The notes below the pieces were generated by a model. The model did not search any database. It was given only the letters and a program-made list of their open reading frames with translations, and was not told where the DNA came from. Shown here one piece after another: positions 16,822 through 50,668 of a stretch of DNA of 64,000 bases (position 1 is its first letter; each line of letters opens with the position of its first letter). The position numbers and the translations under genes are program-made. Source of the stretch: Atopobium fossor DSM 15642 (lineage in GTDB: Bacteria > Actinomycetota > Coriobacteriia > Coriobacteriales > Atopobiaceae); assembly GCF_000483125.1 (NCBI RefSeq), contig NZ_AXXR01000003.1, positions 62,001 to 126,000 of the forward strand. The letters run 5' to 3'.

Positions 16822-16855
16822 GTCTTCTCATTATTAATATTAATAATGAGAAGAC
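16822..16855. repeat. 34-bp perfect palindrome in the leader of the toxin-antitoxin operon
   Basis: Perfect inverted repeat with no loop; each 17-base arm reads GTCTTCTCATTATTAAT towards the centre at 16838/16839. It ends 24 bp before the antitoxin ATG and lacks a following T-run, so it is not a standard terminator. An extended -10 (TGTGATAAT, 16763-16771) lies upstream. The central 22 bp recur exactly at 37192-37227. It is probably an operator for the antitoxin dimer. Confidence 0.85.
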
Positions 16856-16879: not shown

Positions 16880-17152
16880 ATGGCAATTGCAGCAGGTACA
16901 ATTACCAAAACAGGTCAGGTTACCATTCCTAAATCCATTAGAGAAATTTTGGGTGTAGACATCTCAGACCAGATTGCCTTTCTTAGCGATGGCAAACGCG
17001 TAGAACTTATTGCTGTACCAAAAAATCCTTTATCGCTCAAATCAAAAGAAGAGTTTCGTAAGGAAGTCGAACTTGCGGAACTTCAAAAGGTACAAGGAAG
17101 GTTCACGGTACTTGGTGGACCCGAGAACAGAGTGGCTCAAGTATCATGTTAA
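16880..17152 (+). CDS. AbrB/MazE-family antitoxin
   Basis: DNA-binding antitoxin half of a type II toxin-antitoxin pair. The first 45 residues form a SpoVT/AbrB swapped-hairpin domain (GTITKTGQVTIPKSIREILGV). The remaining 45 or so form a charged helical tail (KSKEEFRKEVELAEL) that would wrap the toxin. The toxin ATG lies inside its last codons, a 7-bp overlap that couples translation. The 34-bp palindrome just upstream is the likely autoregulatory operator, an inference from position. Confidence 0.85.
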   Translation: MAIAAGTITKTGQVTIPKSIREILGVDISDQIAFLSDGKRVELIAVPKNPLSLKSKEEFRKEVELAELQKVQGRFTVLGGPENRVAQVSC

Positions 17153-17478
17153 ATACCATCCTGGTATCCGACCAATTTAGGGAAAACTATCATACTGCTT
17201 ACGGATACACCCTACAGTACTTTGGTGCAGAGGAAGCAGAATACTTTGATCGATGCGTTCACACCGCAATCAATAGAATTAGATCGATGGCATACGTTGG
17301 AACCCTAATCATAAAACCTGCTGGGCAAAATCATATGACTAATCCACGCTGCATTAATGCAGGCAACTACATTATTGTCTATGAAGCAAATATTAAGCAT
17401 AGGGAAATTCTGCTTATAAGCATGTTCCAAGCCACTAAAGGATGGCGTCAGAAGATTGACTCCTATTACTATGATTAA
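17146..17478 (+). CDS. RelE/ParE-like toxin of a type II toxin-antitoxin system
   Basis: 110-residue basic protein overlapping the antitoxin gene by 7 bp. Size, position and the C-terminal strand pattern (RCINAGNYIIVYEANIKHREILLISMFQATKG) fit a RelE/ParE-fold toxin, which would act as an mRNA endonuclease or gyrase poison. The exact target cannot be told from the sequence. AbrB-type antitoxins are more often paired with MazF-like or VapC-like toxins; this combination with a RelE-fold is also known but makes the family call moderate. Confidence 0.75.
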   Translation: MLNTILVSDQFRENYHTAYGYTLQYFGAEEAEYFDRCVHTAINRIRSMAYVGTLIIKPAGQNHMTNPRCINAGNYIIVYEANIKHREILLISMFQATKGWRQKIDSYYYD

Positions 17479-36075: not shown

Positions 36076-36555
36076 TTATTTATCCTGATGTTTTCTATAC
36101 TCTTCAAGCTGCTCCACATAGGTACCACCCTGCTTTTTAAATGCAGCATTGATCACTATGGTATGCATTGCCAAGATGAGTAGGTAGAGAATTACAAACG
36201 TAACCCATGCGGCAATATTAGTAACAGGCAGCCACATACCAAACCATGCACAACCAAAGAGCACCACAAAATAGCTCAGACCAAAGCCTAAGATACGTAG
36301 CGTGTAGTGTAATGAAGCCAGAATCTTGGTATCGTAGTCAAACCAAAATTCTTGCAAAATTCCTCCGGCAACTCCTGCAACAATAATGCTTGCTATGAGG
36401 TTGTTATGCAAAAAGGATCCTTTCATAACATAATCCAGAAGCACCCCCACCACAAGCATGACAACAGCTAGAACGCATCCCTGTGCTGCACCGCGCAACA
36501 TACGAGTAAAAGCATTGTTTTTTTCGTGAGAAGATTCTGCAAAATAGAAACCCAT
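36076..36555 (-). CDS. DUF3021 family membrane protein
   Basis: 159-residue protein with four hydrophobic helices (VLAVVMLVVGVLLDYV, LIASIIVAGVAGGIL, LRILGFGLSYFVVLFGCAWF, AAWVTFVILYLLILAMHTIV) and a charged C-terminal tail. DUF3021 proteins are typically paired with a LytTR regulator, as here: the LytTR gene ends 10 bp upstream. It may hold the regulator at the membrane; that is inferred from other pairs. Confidence 0.85.
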   Translation of the reverse strand: MGFYFAESSHEKNNAFTRMLRGAAQGCVLAVVMLVVGVLLDYVMKGSFLHNNLIASIIVAGVAGGILQEFWFDYDTKILASLHYTLRILGFGLSYFVVLFGCAWFGMWLPVTNIAAWVTFVILYLLILAMHTIVINAAFKKQGGTYVEQLEEYRKHQDK

Positions 36556-36565
36556 AGCACTCTCC

Positions 36566-37018
36566 TTACTTCCATGAAGCTAGTTTTTGTTTAATGACGC
36601 TTGCATATGTCCGTGATACCAACACAGTGGTATCGCCCTGTAGCTCAAGCACCATACGACCATTGAGCTCTGGCCTAATACCAACCACAGCATCAAAATT
36701 AACAATAAGCTGCTTTGAAATACGGATGAACTCTGTGCCTCCTAGGGCATTCTCTAGAGCAAACAAACGCTGAGCGCTTTCAAAAACGCGTCCATCCATA
36801 CAATGAATAAGTGCTCCTGGCTCATGGGCCTCTATAAATGCCACCTGTGCAAATGGAAGCACCTTCCGTACAGTTCCTGAACCTTCATATGCAATAAACT
36901 TACCTTCACTAACCCGCAAAAGCTCAAGCAAGCGTGGTAGACGAGGATTGTCTGGATCTACTACCAGATGTACTTCAATACCCTCAAAACCGCGCTTCTC
37001 GTCAATAAAAATTCGCAT
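36566..37018 (-). CDS. LytTR-domain DNA-binding protein
   Basis: 150-residue regulator with no receiver domain. The N-terminal 50 residues are variable; the rest is a LytTR domain (KVLPFAQVAFIEAHEPGALIHC, FIRISKQLIVNFDAVVGIRPELNGRMVLEL). It binds DNA through beta strands. A 36-bp palindrome lies about 175 bp upstream (37192-37227). Proteins of this stand-alone type often autoregulate with a DUF3021 partner, which is the next gene. Confidence 0.88.
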   Translation of the reverse strand: MRIFIDEKRGFEGIEVHLVVDPDNPRLPRLLELLRVSEGKFIAYEGSGTVRKVLPFAQVAFIEAHEPGALIHCMDGRVFESAQRLFALENALGGTEFIRISKQLIVNFDAVVGIRPELNGRMVLELQGDTTVLVSRTYASVIKQKLASWK

Positions 37019-37191
37019 TACTCTATCCCTCTCTTCGATGGCTCAAGTATACAAAGCGCGCGTTCATCTACCCTCAACAGACAGCCAAGATGCAATCATT
37101 GCCAACTCAGTTGCACCATAACCCTTTTTTATGCTGTTTGGATGCACATAGAGTTGGATGAAGAGCACTGGATAAAATGCTGTAGCTGTTG

Positions 37192-37227
37192 CCTCTAGTC
37201 ATTATTAATATTAATAATGACTAGAGG
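37192..37227. repeat. 36-bp perfect palindrome sharing its core with the toxin-antitoxin palindrome
   Basis: Perfect loop-free inverted repeat; each 18-base arm reads CCTCTAGTCATTATTAAT towards the centre at 37209/37210. Its central 22 bp are identical to those of 16822-16855, but the outer arms differ and are still self-complementary. It sits between the end of the PTS operon and the LytTR gene. The rest of 37019-37364 holds only the terminator at 37243-37280. Confidence 0.85.
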
Positions 37228-37242
37228 GTAATCGAGCTATAT

Positions 37243-37280
37243 AAAAATAGAACCCAGCTCACATGTGAACTGGGTTCTAT
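37243..37280 (-). terminator. Rho-independent terminator of the fructose PTS operon
   Basis: On the minus strand ATAGAACCCAG pairs with CTGGGTTCTAT, with an inner TCACATGTGA that extends the stem, followed by a five-T run (37243-37247). It lies about 85 bp after the EIIBC stop codon. Confidence 0.85.
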
Positions 37281-37364
37281 TGCTCCTAGTATTTTATCTA
37301 TTCAAAAGAAGCAACGATTGGTTAGTTAGACAGCTTGTAAAGCACAACTTTTGCGGGCGGAAGC

Positions 37365-38882
37365 TTAGTCAATAACTTTATTGCCATTCTTGATGTACTG
37401 GTTACGCTTAAAGAGCAAGAACAACAAGCCACCAACGATGGTACCAGCCAGTATTGCTACAACCCACATCAGGCCGCCGTCAACAACAGGCAATACCAAG
37501 AAGCCACCGTGAGGCGCTGGATCATGTACACCAAAGAAGATGGTGAGAATGGCACCAATGGAAGAACCAAGCATCATGATGGGCATAACTGGCCAAATAT
37601 TCTTGGTCATGAAAGGAATAGCGCCCTCGGTAATGTGGGTGCAGCCCAAGATGAAGTTAACCAAGCCAGCATCGTGATCTTCCTGAGTAAAGTACTTCTT
37701 ACCCAGAAGAACAGCAAAGGTAGTAATCAGCGGAGGAACAATGCAAGCAGCAGAAACCGCAGCCATGAAGTTAGTACCAAAGTTATAGGTAGAGGTACCA
37801 ACACCAGTAGCTAGAGCCTCGGTAAGCATTGCAGTACCGGTTACGTAAGCAGCCTTGTTAACAGGACCACCCATGTCAAATGCACACATGCAGCCAATAG
37901 CAAGGCCCAATACGATAGGACCGGAAGCAGAAAGACCCTTAAGGAAGTCCATCATTGCAGTATTAATTGCTGCCATGGGACCGGAAATGCCAAGCATTAC
38001 TAGGCCAACAATAAAGGCAGAGCACAAAGGATAGAGGAACATTGCCTTAAGACCGTTGAGGTTCTCGGGAAGCTTAGCAAAGACCTTCTCCAAAAGCAAA
38101 ATGGTATAACCGGCCAAGAAACCACCAATAATGCCACCCAAGAAACCAAAGCCTACGCCAGCGCCACCGGCATCAATAAGACCTGTATCTGGGGATACGG
38201 GAAGACCTTGAATTGCAATCATGCCTGCCAAAAAGCCAGGTACTAATGCAGGACGCTTACCAATGGACTCTGCAATATAAGCAGAAAGCACGGGAACCAT
38301 AAGGCCCATGCAAATACCACCAATGGTCTTAAGCAATGCAGCAAAGGCATTGTAGTCTGCAGCAGTAGAATCAAATGAGGTAATACCCCAGAGGAACGAA
38401 ATAGCAGTAAGTACACCACCAGCAACAACAAATACCAGCATGTGACTTACGCCGTTCATAAGGTGCTTGTAAATCTGGTGACCTATAGACTCATTTGCAG
38501 GAGCAGCAGACTGGGCACCAGAATTTGCAACTTCAGTGGTCATCTCGCCAGAAGCCTGAGCAGCCAAAGCTTGCTCGATAAGAGCCTCGGCATCCTCCTT
38601 CTTAATTGCTTTGCTAACACCTACGGAAACCATAGGCTTGCCAGCAAAACGCTCGGCATTAACGTCCTTATCGGCAGCAACAACTACAGCCTTGGCAGCC
38701 TTGATCTGGGCTGGCGTGACCTCGTTCTCGATGCCTACTTGACCGTGAGTCTCTACCTTAATGGTAAGACCCTTGGCAGCTGCAGCATCCTCCAGCGCCT
38801 TCTTGGCCATAAAGGTGTGTGCAATGCCCGTTGGACAACCGGTAGCTGCGATGATGTCGTAGACCTGTGTGTCTTCAGCCAT
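37365..38882 (-). CDS. fruA: PTS fructose-type transporter, fused EIIB-EIIC
   Basis: Phosphotransferase-system permease that imports and phosphorylates a fructose-type sugar. About 505 residues: an EIIB domain with the phosphocysteine in IIAATGCPTGIAHTFMA near residue 15, a linker at about 105-125, then a multi-helix EIIC domain (HMLVFVVAGGVLTAISFLWG, FLAGYTILLLEKVFAKLP). No EIIA domain is fused and none is encoded in the window, so phosphate must come from elsewhere. The ATG at 38882 with GGAGG is chosen. It is last in an operon with the kinase and aldolase. Confidence 0.9.
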   Translation of the reverse strand: MAEDTQVYDIIAATGCPTGIAHTFMAKKALEDAAAAKGLTIKVETHGQVGIENEVTPAQIKAAKAVVVAADKDVNAERFAGKPMVSVGVSKAIKKEDAEALIEQALAAQASGEMTTEVANSGAQSAAPANESIGHQIYKHLMNGVSHMLVFVVAGGVLTAISFLWGITSFDSTAADYNAFAALLKTIGGICMGLMVPVLSAYIAESIGKRPALVPGFLAGMIAIQGLPVSPDTGLIDAGGAGVGFGFLGGIIGGFLAGYTILLLEKVFAKLPENLNGLKAMFLYPLCSAFIVGLVMLGISGPMAAINTAMMDFLKGLSASGPIVLGLAIGCMCAFDMGGPVNKAAYVTGTAMLTEALATGVGTSTYNFGTNFMAAVSAACIVPPLITTFAVLLGKKYFTQEDHDAGLVNFILGCTHITEGAIPFMTKNIWPVMPIMMLGSSIGAILTIFFGVHDPAPHGGFLVLPVVDGGLMWVVAILAGTIVGGLLFLLFKRNQYIKNGNKVID

Positions 38883-38946
38883 GTGCAACTCCTCCCTTCT
38901 TGTGTGCTCTATGGCACATCCCCCTTTGCGCTTACGCGCGATTACC

Positions 38947-46277: not shown

Positions 46278-47222
46278 GTGCGTAAGGGTATTACTAAACT
46301 ATTACTGGCTGTCCTCGTAGCCAGTATGATTGCCATGCCTCTTGCAGCATGCAGCAATAAAAATGGTACTGATGGCATGTCTACAACTGGTGCAGGCACT
46401 AAAAAAACGGTTTACACCACGTTCTTTCCTGTATACGACCTCACCAAGCGCATTGTTGGGGACAAGATGGACGTCAAGATGATTATTAAGGGCAACCAGG
46501 AACCTCACGATTTTGAGCTCCAGGCAGCCGATATGGCAGAAATCACCAAGGCGGACCTCATCGTATACAACGGTGCTGGCATGGAGTCTTTTATCGACGA
46601 TCTTAAGGCTTCCGCCAAGGATGACGACAAGTTCTTGGATTTATCTCAAGGCTTAACCTTGCTGCAAAGCAAGGATGCTGCCGTAGATGACCACTCCAGT
46701 GTTAACCCACATACTTGGCTTTCTATTAAAAACGCCCAGATAGAACTTGACACGCTTTACAACAAATTCTCGGCAATAGACCCCGAAAATGCAGACTATT
46801 ACAAGCAAAACTATGAAAAAGCCTCTGCAGAATTTAAAGAGTTGGACAAGAAATTTGAGGACACGCTGTCCAAGGTTTCTAGTTCCGAGAAGTACTTTGT
46901 AGTTTCACACGCAGCTTTTAACTATCTTGCTAATGATTATGGCCTTAAGCAGGTTGCTGTTACGGGTATCTCCCCCGAAGACGAGCCTTCCGCAGCCCAG
47001 CTTGCAACCATTGCTGATTTTGTAAAGCAGCACAACATTAGCACCATTTTCTTTGAAGGTAAGGCTACCCCTAAGGTTGCCGAGACGTTAGCAAAGAACA
47101 CAGGCACCAAAACGGCAACTATATACACTATGGAAAGCCTCACTGAAGAAGAACAGCAGATGGGCTACCTCAAGCTTATGGAACACAACTTGGACGAGTT
47201 GGTGAAATCCTTCAGTGAGTAA
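46278..47222 (+). CDS. adcA: Zinc ABC transporter substrate-binding lipoprotein, second copy
   Basis: Cluster A-I metal receptor of 314 residues, with a lipoprotein signal ending LAAC near residue 25. Ligand motifs: EPHDFELQ, NPHTWLS, VSHAAFNYLA, GISPEDEP; the third His marks a zinc type. There is only a short loop where the first copy has its His-rich run. It starts at GTG with AAGGAGG. It overlaps the ATPase gene by 8 bp and heads an operon ending in a Pht-like protein. Confidence 0.92.
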   Translation: MRKGITKLLLAVLVASMIAMPLAACSNKNGTDGMSTTGAGTKKTVYTTFFPVYDLTKRIVGDKMDVKMIIKGNQEPHDFELQAADMAEITKADLIVYNGAGMESFIDDLKASAKDDDKFLDLSQGLTLLQSKDAAVDDHSSVNPHTWLSIKNAQIELDTLYNKFSAIDPENADYYKQNYEKASAEFKELDKKFEDTLSKVSSSEKYFVVSHAAFNYLANDYGLKQVAVTGISPEDEPSAAQLATIADFVKQHNISTIFFEGKATPKVAETLAKNTGTKTATIYTMESLTEEEQQMGYLKLMEHNLDELVKSFSE

Positions 47223-47871
47223 GGTGTTAGACATATCAAACGTCTGTTTTGCTTACGAAGATGAGCCTGTTCTTATGGGCGTTACGCTTAGTGTAGAGCA
47301 GTCTCAATTTGTAGCACTTGTTGGAGAGAATGGCGCAGGTAAGTCAACCCTTATGAACCTCATTTTGGGAAATCTCAAGCCCAGCGCAGGAGAAATCCGT
47401 CTATTTGGTGATGTGCGCACTACCAACAATCACTACAACGACATTGCCTATGTCTCGCAATATTCGATTTTAGGATATAAGCATTTTCCAACAACCATTG
47501 AAGAAGTAGTTCGCATACACCTCAAGCACCTTAAAAAAGAGGTGTGCGTAGATCAACTTCTTGCCACTGTCCGTTTAGAAGCGCATGTACACAAGAAGCT
47601 TAATCAGCTTTCCGGTGGTCAACTACAGCGCATTGGGTTGCTGTTAGCACTCATTAAGGACGCCAAGCTTATCTTGCTGGATGAACCCACTTCGGGAATT
47701 GATAAGAAATTCTCGGCAGAGTTATATCAAATCCTGCGAGAACTATGTGATCAGGGTAAAACCGTTGTTATTATCACACATCACTTATCAGAAGCCCGCG
47801 ATTTTGTTGATAAGACCATCTGCTTAGAGGATGGCTGTTGCTGCGAGCTAGAGCATGCTCAATGGAGGTGA
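47215..47871 (+). CDS. adcC: Zinc ABC transporter ATP-binding protein, second copy
   Basis: 218-residue ATPase with Walker A GENGAGKST, signature LSGGQLQRIG, Walker B AKLILLDEPTSGIDK and ITHHLSEA. The start is a GTG overlapping the binding-protein stop by 8 bp; the permease ATG follows 6 bp after its stop. It resembles znuC of the first operon in layout. Confidence 0.92.
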   Translation: MSKVLDISNVCFAYEDEPVLMGVTLSVEQSQFVALVGENGAGKSTLMNLILGNLKPSAGEIRLFGDVRTTNNHYNDIAYVSQYSILGYKHFPTTIEEVVRIHLKHLKKEVCVDQLLATVRLEAHVHKKLNQLSGGQLQRIGLLLALIKDAKLILLDEPTSGIDKKFSAELYQILRELCDQGKTVVIITHHLSEARDFVDKTICLEDGCCCELEHAQWR

Positions 47872-47877
47872 GCGCTC

Positions 47878-48663
47878 ATGTTTGAGTATGAATTTATGCA
47901 GCGCGCCTTTATTGTAGGCAGTATTTTAGCTGGTATCCTACCGTGCATTGGCTTGCCCATCTTGCTTAAGCGTCTATCTATGATGGGAGATACTCTTTCT
48001 CATGCTTCTTTGGCGGGTGTAGCAATTGGCCTATGCTTTGGTTTTAATCCCTTGCTGGGATCGGTGGTAGCTTGCATTGTGGCTGGTCTTTCCATCGAAA
48101 TCATTAGTGCACGTCTTAAGGCCTATCAGGAGATTTCTACCGTTATTGTATTAGCGGCATCCATTGGCTTGGCAGGTATTTTTACCAGCCTGGCTGGGAA
48201 TAGCAACTCTATTAGTTCCTATCTTTTTGGCTCCATCGTAACCATTGGGGATTTGGAATTTTACCTGGTTATTGCCGTGGCGGCTCTTGTTGTTAGCACC
48301 TACAAGATACTGTACAACCGCTTGTACCTCAGTGTGTTTGATCCACAGTCTGCACCCCTTTTGGGCATCAATACCAAACTGTTGAGCTTTGTGTTCTCAT
48401 TTTTGGTTGCTATCACCATCTCCATTGCAGCCAAAACTATTGGTTCGTTGATTGTCTCGTCCCTGTTGGTTGTACCTGTTATCAGTGCTATGCAGTTTAG
48501 CAAGACCTACCGCTCCACCTTAGGCATATCCATGCTTTTATCGGTGTTGGCAGTATATGCAGGCTTGTACATCTCGTACATCTACAACCTACGACCTGGC
48601 GCGGTTATTGTGCTTTTATCTGTAGGTATTTTGATTGTTTCGCTCATCTGTAAACGTAAGTAA
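47878..48663 (+). CDS. adcB: Zinc ABC transporter permease, second copy
   Basis: 261-residue ABC-3 permease opening FEYEFMQRAFIVGS with the coupling motif LSMMGDTLSHASLAGVAIGL, about eight helices. It follows the ATPase by 6 bp. The Pht-like gene follows after 37 bp, with its own AAGGAG, probably on the same transcript. Confidence 0.92.
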   Translation: MFEYEFMQRAFIVGSILAGILPCIGLPILLKRLSMMGDTLSHASLAGVAIGLCFGFNPLLGSVVACIVAGLSIEIISARLKAYQEISTVIVLAASIGLAGIFTSLAGNSNSISSYLFGSIVTIGDLEFYLVIAVAALVVSTYKILYNRLYLSVFDPQSAPLLGINTKLLSFVFSFLVAITISIAAKTIGSLIVSSLLVVPVISAMQFSKTYRSTLGISMLLSVLAVYAGLYISYIYNLRPGAVIVLLSVGILIVSLICKRK

Positions 48664-48700
48664 TAAAGGCGCTTAGGCGCTATATAGATAAGGAGTTAGC

Positions 48701-50668
48701 ATGATTAGTAAGACTGGGGCAGTTGTAGCTGGCTTGCTTGCTGTGTCGTTGGGTGTTGGTGGATTTACACTTGCCAATCAACCTAAACAACAAACAGTAA
48801 CTCATACTTCCACTGCTATTACAACCACGCCCTTCCAGCAAAAACAGGGCAATTATGCTGCAGACACTACAACTCAGGTACTCATTGATGCCCCTGCTGT
48901 ATCATCCGATGAGATTGTAAAAATCATTAAGCACGGAGACCACTGGCACGTATTTACCAAGGACGGCCGTGAGATTATTACTTACTCTGATCCAACAAAG
49001 GCTGGAAGTGTTGCCAATCTTAAGAATACCGCTAGGGTGCTAGAAGGAGATTCACTCAAGCGTCTTGATCCCAATACCGTAGTGCGTCTGCTTAAGCATG
49101 ACAACCACTGGCACATTATTACTGCTGGCGGTGCTGAGTTTATAACTTATGAAGATCCTCGCCCCTACTACCCCAATGCTGCTGTTGGTGAGTATGTAGG
49201 CAACCATGGTGATCGTCGCAACTATGGCGGTAGCGGCAACGGAAATGGCAACACCTATCAGGCTGGTCACCAGACCAATCAAGGTGGTCAAGGTGGCAGC
49301 TCTTCCAATCAGGGTGGAAGCCTTCCCGGTAACCCAGGATTACATACCGTACGTGTGGTAAATCTTGATGAGCTACGTCGCTTGCCCATTACTAAGATTT
49401 TGCGTCACGACGACCATTGGCACTGCTACACCGCAGATAACACCGAGTACATTACCAAGGATGATCCTACTGGCGTATTCCCCGGCATTGTAATTGGTGA
49501 ATATCACGGTAACCATGGTGACCATGGTGATCACAGTAAGCCTCAACCTCCTCGAGGTCCCATCGTCCAAGATCCCAATGATCCCAAGCGCGTGATTGGC
49601 ATTGAGCATCACGAGAATCACTGGCACCTGCATCATGCAGACGGTACCGAGTCAATTACCTATGAAGATCCTTCTGCTTTATATCCTGATATCAAGATTG
49701 AAGAGTACGATCCCAACCATGGTCACAAATTCGATCCTCTTGATCAGAGTGAGAAATTCTCGTATGACGAGGTAAAACCCAAGTTGATAGTGGATATTAA
49801 AACCATCACCTATGGCAATCTGATTCACGCCAATGGCTTTGACCGTAACCGCAATGCCTTTGTTATTCCTCACCACGATCACTACCACTATATAACCTTG
49901 GAGACCATCATCCAGGGTTGCAAGGACAGCTACTTTGCCAGTGCTTTTGGTAATGCTTCCGCTCGTGATGTTGTTGCAACCATTAAATACTTGATTGCTA
50001 ATCCTGAGGCACGTCCTAAAGGTGAGAATGGCTGGGGCTCAGATTCTTCTATAGGCAAAACTCCTTCACCAGATGCAGGCGGTAACACGGATAACCAAAA
50101 TGGCTCTGACGATGACCATGAGCACCCTGCCAAGAAAGCAACACGCATTATTGCCGCAGCTAAAAACATTTGGTTGGTCTACTACGAGGATGGTACCACC
50201 GAGGAATTTACCTACGACCCCTCTTATAAATGGCCTGGTATACAAGTAGAAAAACCTCAAAGCAACAAGCCTAATGGCAACATGACTCAAGAAGAAATCA
50301 TTGCCAAGTGGTCAAAGATTTATGGCATGACGCGCGATGAGTTTGAAGAAGCTTACCTCAATCTTCCCTATATTCCTATAGAAGACATCCAATTTAATAT
50401 GGATGGTACCGTAATTGTGTATGGCAAGAAATACCAGTTTAAACCTGTTGCTGAGCAGCCCGAGAAGCCCGCAGAGACAGACTCAAAATCAGATACTAAT
50501 GTGGATACGAATACCGATACAGACTCCGCAGACAGTGATATGGATGAAATTGACAAGACAGATCAGGTAGACCAGATTGACGAGCCTGACAACACCAATC
50601 ACGCAGATGTCAATACCAATACAGACACCAGTACGGATGCTAGCGCAGAAAGCGCTGGTACAGAGTAG
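48701..50668 (+). CDS. Histidine-triad (Pht-like) surface protein, 655 aa
   Basis: Exported zinc-associated protein with an N-terminal signal or anchor (AGLLAVSLGVGGFTLA). Five HxxHxH sites occur: KHGDHWH (about residue 77), KHDNHWH (132), RHDDHWH (235), HHENHWH (305) and PHHDHYH (393). Each of the first four is followed by a T/I-T-Y-x-DP strand and three by an NHGD/NHGH motif. A sixth copy near residue 490 (AAAKNIWLVYYEDGTTEEFTYDP) keeps the frame but has lost every His. The C-terminal 70 residues are Asp/Thr/Asn-rich. There is no LPXTG. Pneumococcal Pht proteins scavenge zinc beside AdcA/Lmb; the operon here supports the same role. Confidence 0.88.
   Translation: MISKTGAVVAGLLAVSLGVGGFTLANQPKQQTVTHTSTAITTTPFQQKQGNYAADTTTQVLIDAPAVSSDEIVKIIKHGDHWHVFTKDGREIITYSDPTKAGSVANLKNTARVLEGDSLKRLDPNTVVRLLKHDNHWHIITAGGAEFITYEDPRPYYPNAAVGEYVGNHGDRRNYGGSGNGNGNTYQAGHQTNQGGQGGSSSNQGGSLPGNPGLHTVRVVNLDELRRLPITKILRHDDHWHCYTADNTEYITKDDPTGVFPGIVIGEYHGNHGDHGDHSKPQPPRGPIVQDPNDPKRVIGIEHHENHWHLHHADGTESITYEDPSALYPDIKIEEYDPNHGHKFDPLDQSEKFSYDEVKPKLIVDIKTITYGNLIHANGFDRNRNAFVIPHHDHYHYITLETIIQGCKDSYFASAFGNASARDVVATIKYLIANPEARPKGENGWGSDSSIGKTPSPDAGGNTDNQNGSDDDHEHPAKKATRIIAAAKNIWLVYYEDGTTEEFTYDPSYKWPGIQVEKPQSNKPNGNMTQEEIIAKWSKIYGMTRDEFEEAYLNLPYIPIEDIQFNMDGTVIVYGKKYQFKPVAEQPEKPAETDSKSDTNVDTNTDTDSADSDMDEIDKTDQVDQIDEPDNTNHADVNTNTDTSTDASAESAGTE

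Follow-up and report, generated by a model that had tools for sequence, protein, structure and literature searches.

Two perfect palindromes of Atopobium fossor, one directly upstream of a toxin-antitoxin (TA) pair and one beside a LytTR-domain gene, have the same centre but different outer arms, and the question is whether the shared sequence is a binding site of the antitoxin or a small repeat that keeps its hairpin pairing while its arms diverge. An earlier note on the window (the whole 64,000-nucleotide stretch analysed here) put these forward as alternatives. Its description of the pair survives a sequence check: both palindromes are perfect, their central 22 bp (TCATTATTAATATTAATAATGA, at 16828-16849 and 37199-37220) are identical, and the arms, GTCTTC/GAAGAC at 16822 and CCTCTAG/CTAGAGG at 37192, differ, yet each pair is self-complementary. 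The note also took two chance matches to be unlikely, and indeed the window holds 2 exact cores, compared with 0.00 expected from 100 dinucleotide shuffles. The pair (Table 1) is part of a dispersed family, a larger finding than the note stated.

Table 1. Palindromes and neighbouring features at the two loci of the window.
Feature	Coordinates	Strand	Remarks
34-bp perfect palindrome, putative extended TA operator	16822..16855	.	Tag (C)GTC, variable mirrored segment TTC and the common 22-bp core
Candidate operator core TATTA-N4-TAATA	16832..16845	.	2 exact in window, 0.09 expected
AbrB/MazE-type antitoxin	16880..17152	+	Start 24 bp past the palindrome; PF04014 31.3 bits (cut-off 24.7), TIGR01439 29.1 (cut-off 28.3)
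ParE/RelE-like toxin	17146..17478	+	Overlaps the antitoxin gene; PF05016 20 bits (cut-off 23); alignment A4
Gene called DUF3021 by the earlier note	36076..36555	-	No Pfam match at E <= 0.01
LytTR-domain gene	36566..37018	-	PF04397, E 2.3e-17; 173 bp separate its start codon from the solo copy
36-bp perfect palindrome of the same family (solo copy)	37192..37227	.	Tag CCTC; no antitoxin adjoining
Candidate operator core of the solo copy	37203..37216	.	2 exact in window, 0.09 expected
Hairpin with T-run, read as terminator of the PTS gene	37240..37277	-	Read from the sequence; solo palindrome just beyond

The antitoxin carries an AbrB/MazE DNA-binding domain that scores above both the Pfam and the NCBIfam cut-offs, and the toxin homologue adjoining a related antitoxin in locus L162 exceeds the PF05016 cut-off of 23 with 33.4 bits. 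The structure models, each built from a single sequence, are poor (pLDDT 64.3 for the toxin and 48.6 for the other), and the fold search with the toxin model yields weak ParE-type matches, none at E <= 0.001. PADLOC gives no match for the TA pair, and a sequence search of the PDB with the antitoxin returns weak matches alone (best E 0.063).

The genome of Atopobium fossor (1,653,508 bases in 4 contigs) contains 8 exact copies of the 22-bp core which, with a copy carrying 1 mismatch (L009) and a variant palindrome with 3 mismatches (L011), bring the total to 10. A decayed, weak additional copy was picked up by covariance model at C1:450107 (E 0.149); another sequence within 3 mismatches (L010) reads as coding, looks like a chance match and was left out of the alignments. 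Two covariance models were used, R1 comprising 11 copies and R2 comprising 20 copies from two species, Atopobium fossor and A. minutum. R1 detects about ten places in each of these genomes (G000 and G002, respectively) and weak ones in G031 and G043, i.e. in 4 of the 140 genomes of the family. R2 finds 10 sites and the weak decayed one in Atopobium fossor, 11 copies in A. minutum and none in the third genome of the genus (G001). Across the order, under the stricter filters applied to large sets, R2 matches 2 of the 395 genomes at E <= 0.001 and none of the other 393, although, having been built from the copies of the two Atopobium species, it is biased towards them. The two species belong to the same genus, and the ABC transporter of Atopobium fossor shares 89% identity with its A. 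minutum counterpart; an apparently low GC content in one sampled stretch of A. minutum reflects masked N, not biology.

Among the GTDB genome contigs, a set from which the organism's own or very near records are possibly absent, the exact 22-bp core has no match. Two viral contigs, both of about 30% GC, contain it (L107 and L108), probably by chance, and no antitoxin of this family occurs in the parts of them that were examined. Each of these contigs (L107:1828-2505 and L108:383-1060) also contains a 40-bp perfect palindrome centred on TTAATATTAA, with the same 22-bp core 640 bp further. The literature covered, which takes in few subscription journals, contains nothing on antitoxin operators dispersed through a genome, nor on palindromes of Atopobium.

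The copies are built on a common plan: a tag (TGTC, CGTC or CCTC), a variable mirrored segment, the presumptive operator half-sites around an NWWT spacer, and the mirror image, so that the common core reads TTATTA-N4-TAATAA. In the 20 aligned copies from the two species, the tag belongs to this set of three in 18 left arms and all 20 right arms, 18 copies retain both half-sites, TTATTA and TAATAA, unchanged, and the 4-base spacer follows the pattern A/G/C-W-W-T throughout. The spacer is ATAT in 9 of 10 Atopobium fossor copies versus 3 of 10 in A. minutum; the looser spacers of the latter are consistent with a lost binding constraint but prove nothing. At least 15 perfect pairs extend outward from the loop in 9 of the 10 Atopobium fossor copies, and the first two stem pairs are A-T in all 10, compared with 1 of 10 in A. 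minutum.

The segment between tag and half-site varies from copy to copy, and the variation is mirrored in the opposite arm. Covariation counts, inflated by the kinship of the copies, give 61 two-sided cells, compared with 29.4 +/- 4.1 in shuffles and at most 17 in slid controls, and a covariation score of 0.381, compared with 0.156 in shuffles (reached by 0 of 500). Two of the five measures are no higher than in shuffles, namely pairs with two-sided change (11 versus 9.9; 133 of 500) and further pair types (26 versus 28.1; 439 of 500). Some copies carry what look like template-switch scars: L246, outside the 20-copy alignment, has lost six central bases, the spacer included, and is still a perfect palindrome, and a half-arm is duplicated beside L127. 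Together with the dispersed copies in two species, the arm covariation supports one alternative of the earlier note, a small palindromic element that keeps its pairing while its arms diverge.

The other alternative, an operator, was assessed at 30 antitoxin loci of the order, comprising 15 close homologues, 14 distant ones and a partial locus (L281); 12 further antitoxin matches in the order lie outside this sample. The inner repeat TATTA-N4-TAATA is exact upstream of 8 of the 15 close homologues, that of Atopobium fossor included (7 of 14 without it), is present with at most one mismatch in 11 and at most two in 13, and is missing in two (L272 and L277). The partial locus, a sixteenth, also has the exact repeat, the start of its gene being uncertain. 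None of the 14 distant homologues has the exact repeat and 4 have it within 2 mismatches; they often show CATTG/CAATG-type repeats instead. As a control, 2006 ORFs of 100 amino acids or longer, called mechanically in 80 related loci and many of them possibly spurious, were screened over the 80 bases upstream: none has the exact repeat and one has it with at most 1 mismatch.

Since 8 of 15 close homologues, but none of the 2006 control ORFs, have the exact core upstream, the most fitting reading of the palindrome at 16822-16855 is that of an extended operator belonging to the antitoxin itself, and its position and conservation make the core the likely operator type of this AbrB/MazE antitoxin subfamily. 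The binding site predicted by the earlier note for the AbrB-type antitoxin is thereby supported at the sequence level, the same inverted repeat recurring upstream of homologous antitoxins in other genera; and as the dispersed element carries the putative operator, both alternatives of the note would be true.

The 14-mer TATTAATATTAATA is present in 4 of the 140 family genomes. In two of these, from two other genera (G031 and G043), the sole genomic occurrences lie inside perfect palindromes of about 30 bp, two tandem copies in G043, which stand 40-41 bp before homologous antitoxin genes as their presumptive operators and have the outer CCTC/GAGG seen in some Atopobium copies. In G043 (L157:2700-4650), the palindrome and the antitoxin-toxin module are tandemly duplicated at a distance of about 1 kb, and the first toxin copy is interrupted at an N. 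In G031 (L158:2720-3050), the palindrome accompanies an antitoxin gene, no homologous toxin was found, and the locus adjoins a YefM/RelE-like pair and short repeats; tRNA-Pro and ispE are nearby.

Copies have been gained and lost at syntenic places between Atopobium fossor and A. minutum, as the comparison of related genomes suggested by the earlier note reveals. Three of the 10 Atopobium fossor sites (L006, L007 and L011) are occupied by a palindrome in A. minutum too, four are empty there (L001, L005, L008 and L009), and L002 lies outside the synteny mapping. At the place of L003, A. minutum (L216, G002:C3 near 1232 kb) has the half palindrome GTC-N4-CGTTATTA with a different gene following it, a further scar and possibly a rearrangement breakpoint at the palindrome centre. 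At the TA locus itself (L004), the palindrome, the TA pair and the acetyltransferase gene are missing together from the corresponding A. minutum stretch. Conversely, besides the 3 sites common to both species, 6 of the 11 A. minutum sites map to copy-free places of Atopobium fossor (L117, L122, L124, L125, L156 and L154, the last adjoining a rearrangement), and L115 and L246 are outside the mapping.

At the shared sites, the changes are again mirrored. GTCATG has become GTCGTG in L006/L129 with its mirror changed too, GTC has become CTC with its mirror in L011/L133, where the outer stem is also longer, and most of the variable segment has changed in both arms of L007/L132, a pair that could also represent independent arrivals at a tRNA-side hotspot. 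An AbrB/MazE antitoxin was not detected in A. minutum (nothing at E <= 0.001; best PF04014 match E 0.529, below the cut-off; none among the antitoxin matches of the order). As it has 11 copies all the same, their maintenance does not require the antitoxin: recent loss of the antitoxin, another keeper of the copies or mutation bias alone would account for them.

These observations are probably, although by no means securely, accounted for if the palindrome at 16822 is both the operator of the antitoxin and one copy of the dispersed family. The 14-bp inverted repeat TATTA-N4-TAATA would have grown into the perfect 34-bp palindrome, and the antitoxin, alone or with the toxin, would bind the core and repress its own operon, as the conserved position suggests. 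It would probably bind the nine other intact copies of Atopobium fossor as well, and these would act mainly as decoys rather than switches of nearby genes. The arms are proposed to change yet stay self-complementary through the copying of one arm from the other within a hairpin or cruciform at replication. Homogenisation by such template switching fits the mirrored extensions, the central loss in L246 and the half-arm duplication beside L127. Points against this account are the copies kept by A. minutum despite its lack of a detected antitoxin, the two close homologues without the repeat and its absence in exact form from the distant ones, the two covariation measures at shuffle level, the absence of a Y1 transposase as mobilising enzyme from the genus genomes, and the lack of TA remnants beside the solo copies.

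The order of events may have been the reverse: the family would have begun as independent REP-like hairpins, and a TA module inserted into one copy, which now serves as its operator. This origin is unlikely but has points in its favour: the persistence of the copies in A. minutum without the antitoxin, the joint absence of palindrome, TA pair and acetyltransferase gene from the syntenic stretch, and tags equal to those named for CGTC-tagged REPs in PMC3733652. Against it, the inner repeat also precedes related antitoxin genes in other genera where no dispersed copies were found, so the operator appears to be the wider and probably older form.

A true regulon, in which the antitoxin would act in trans on the LytTR locus and further neighbours of the copies, is quite improbable. 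The identity of the core in 8 of 10 copies despite differing arms suggests a constraint on it, and L001 precedes a start codon by 24 bp, the same distance as at the TA locus. However, L001 is the only place where this distance is repeated, and the gaps holding the 17 distinct sites of both genomes, by mechanical ORF calls (classes uncertain for L002, L011 and L156; L246 and the decayed copy left out), comprise 13 co-directional, 4 convergent and no divergent ones, which does not look like a promoter regulon. Across both genomes, the copies occupy no consistent promoter position.

At the LytTR locus, the domain label of the earlier note is sound and its DUF3021 label found no backing in Pfam (Table 1). 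The trans control that it envisaged there is not supported: the solo palindrome lies past what reads as the PTS terminator, and the syntenic A. minutum locus keeps the LytTR side and has no palindrome. Three other copies are likewise missing from their syntenic places. Two paralogous fructose-type PTS genes, one at L001 and one at 36076-38888 of the window, each have a palindrome copy shortly downstream. Elsewhere in the window, 46278-50668 holds genes of a zinc/manganese-type ABC transporter and, after them, one for a protein whose repeated motifs are histidine-triad-like (HGDHWH-like) and which presumably resembles the streptococcal histidine-triad proteins.

Still less probable is a role as chromosome-organising sites, in which palindromes near the origin would be recognised by a nucleoid or segregation protein. 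All 10 intact copies of Atopobium fossor do lie within about 40% of a replichore of the origin inferred from skew (post hoc p ~1e-4, contig order taken from synteny), but in A. minutum 7 of 11 are within 350 kb (p 0.086), the decayed Atopobium fossor copy is far from the origin, and gain and loss at syntenic places are frequent. Equally little probability can be assigned to an RNA element, such as an attenuator or terminator hairpin, or to mere accident through mutation driven by hairpins: the strong two-sided covariation speaks for this reading, but no T-run follows the hairpins, Rfam finds just two nearby tRNAs at the ten sites, and the constant half-sites match the putative antitoxin operator. 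The solo palindromes were also considered as relics of lost TA modules, an idea set aside on finding no TA remnants at E <= 0.1 with eight queries beside 21 loci without a known TA, even if the orphan antitoxin and palindrome of G031, near the same tRNA/ispE region as the L007 copy, leave it some room.

To our knowledge, the origin of dispersed bacterial palindromic repeats is usually not known. With the 16822 palindrome read as both operator and family member, a repeat family can be tied to a defined, predicted protein-binding site, and the repeats persist in a close relative that lacks the protein. Their origin, the homogenisation of their arms and any decoy effect can thus be tested directly. 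The family also carries a warning: copies of a TA operator elsewhere than at the TA locus are not necessarily a sign that neighbouring genes are regulated.

Among known repeats, the Atopobium family most invites comparison with the CGTC-tagged REPs, which PMC3733652 describes as short extragenic palindromes with heterogeneous complementary stems and a 4-base loop, no dedicated transposase being known, and whose terminal CGTC is frequently replaced by TGTC or CCTC; the five phyla named for the CGTC repeats in the passages covered do not include Actinobacteria. The REP loop of 4-5 bases is matched by the 4-base spacer of the 20 aligned copies, and A-T as the first two stem pairs, another REP trait, occurs in all 10 Atopobium fossor copies but in a single aligned copy of A. 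minutum. In contrast, the REP tag as described there is unpaired and confined to one end, whereas the Atopobium tags are paired and occupy both ends; the REP stem is 8-9 bp, whereas that of Atopobium is longer, with just 10-11 copies per genome and a core that matches a TA operator; and the unpaired CCA tail of the REPs is lacking in Atopobium alignment A2. Because of these differences in tag, stem and tail, the family resembles the CGTC-REPs but is not classified with them.

The same three tag variants and the lack of a known transposase nevertheless hint that some CGTC-REPs elsewhere may descend from TA operators. In this speculative and improbable extension of the operator reading, TA operators would become dispersed, tagged, REP-like repeats that persist after loss of the TA module, as in A. 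minutum, and soak up the antitoxin for as long as the module is there. The GTAG REPs mobilised by RAYTs are likewise small dispersed extragenic hairpins, but the Atopobium family has no GTAG tag; mobility of the REP/RAYT kind is rejected on the absence of the Y1 (IS200-like) transposase (PF01797) from all three genomes of the genus, compared with its presence in 5 of 14 control genomes.

Two further comparisons concern the proposed mechanism. Template switching within short inverted repeats is described in PMC8604942, where, as suggested here, an arm is rewritten from its partner and imperfect inverted repeats become perfect; the case reported there concerns coding genes of yeast, whereas in Atopobium the process would act on a dispersed family around a conserved core. 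The AbrB/MazE operators of E. coli mazEF and M. tuberculosis mazEF6 (PMC9477884) are similar in being AT-rich sites, bound by the antitoxin, upstream of its own operon, and that of E. coli mazEF is palindromic. The putative operator of Atopobium fossor differs from these in being a perfect 34-bp palindrome with near copies at nine other intact sites and, as an operator, would be a variant of the AbrB/MazE kind.
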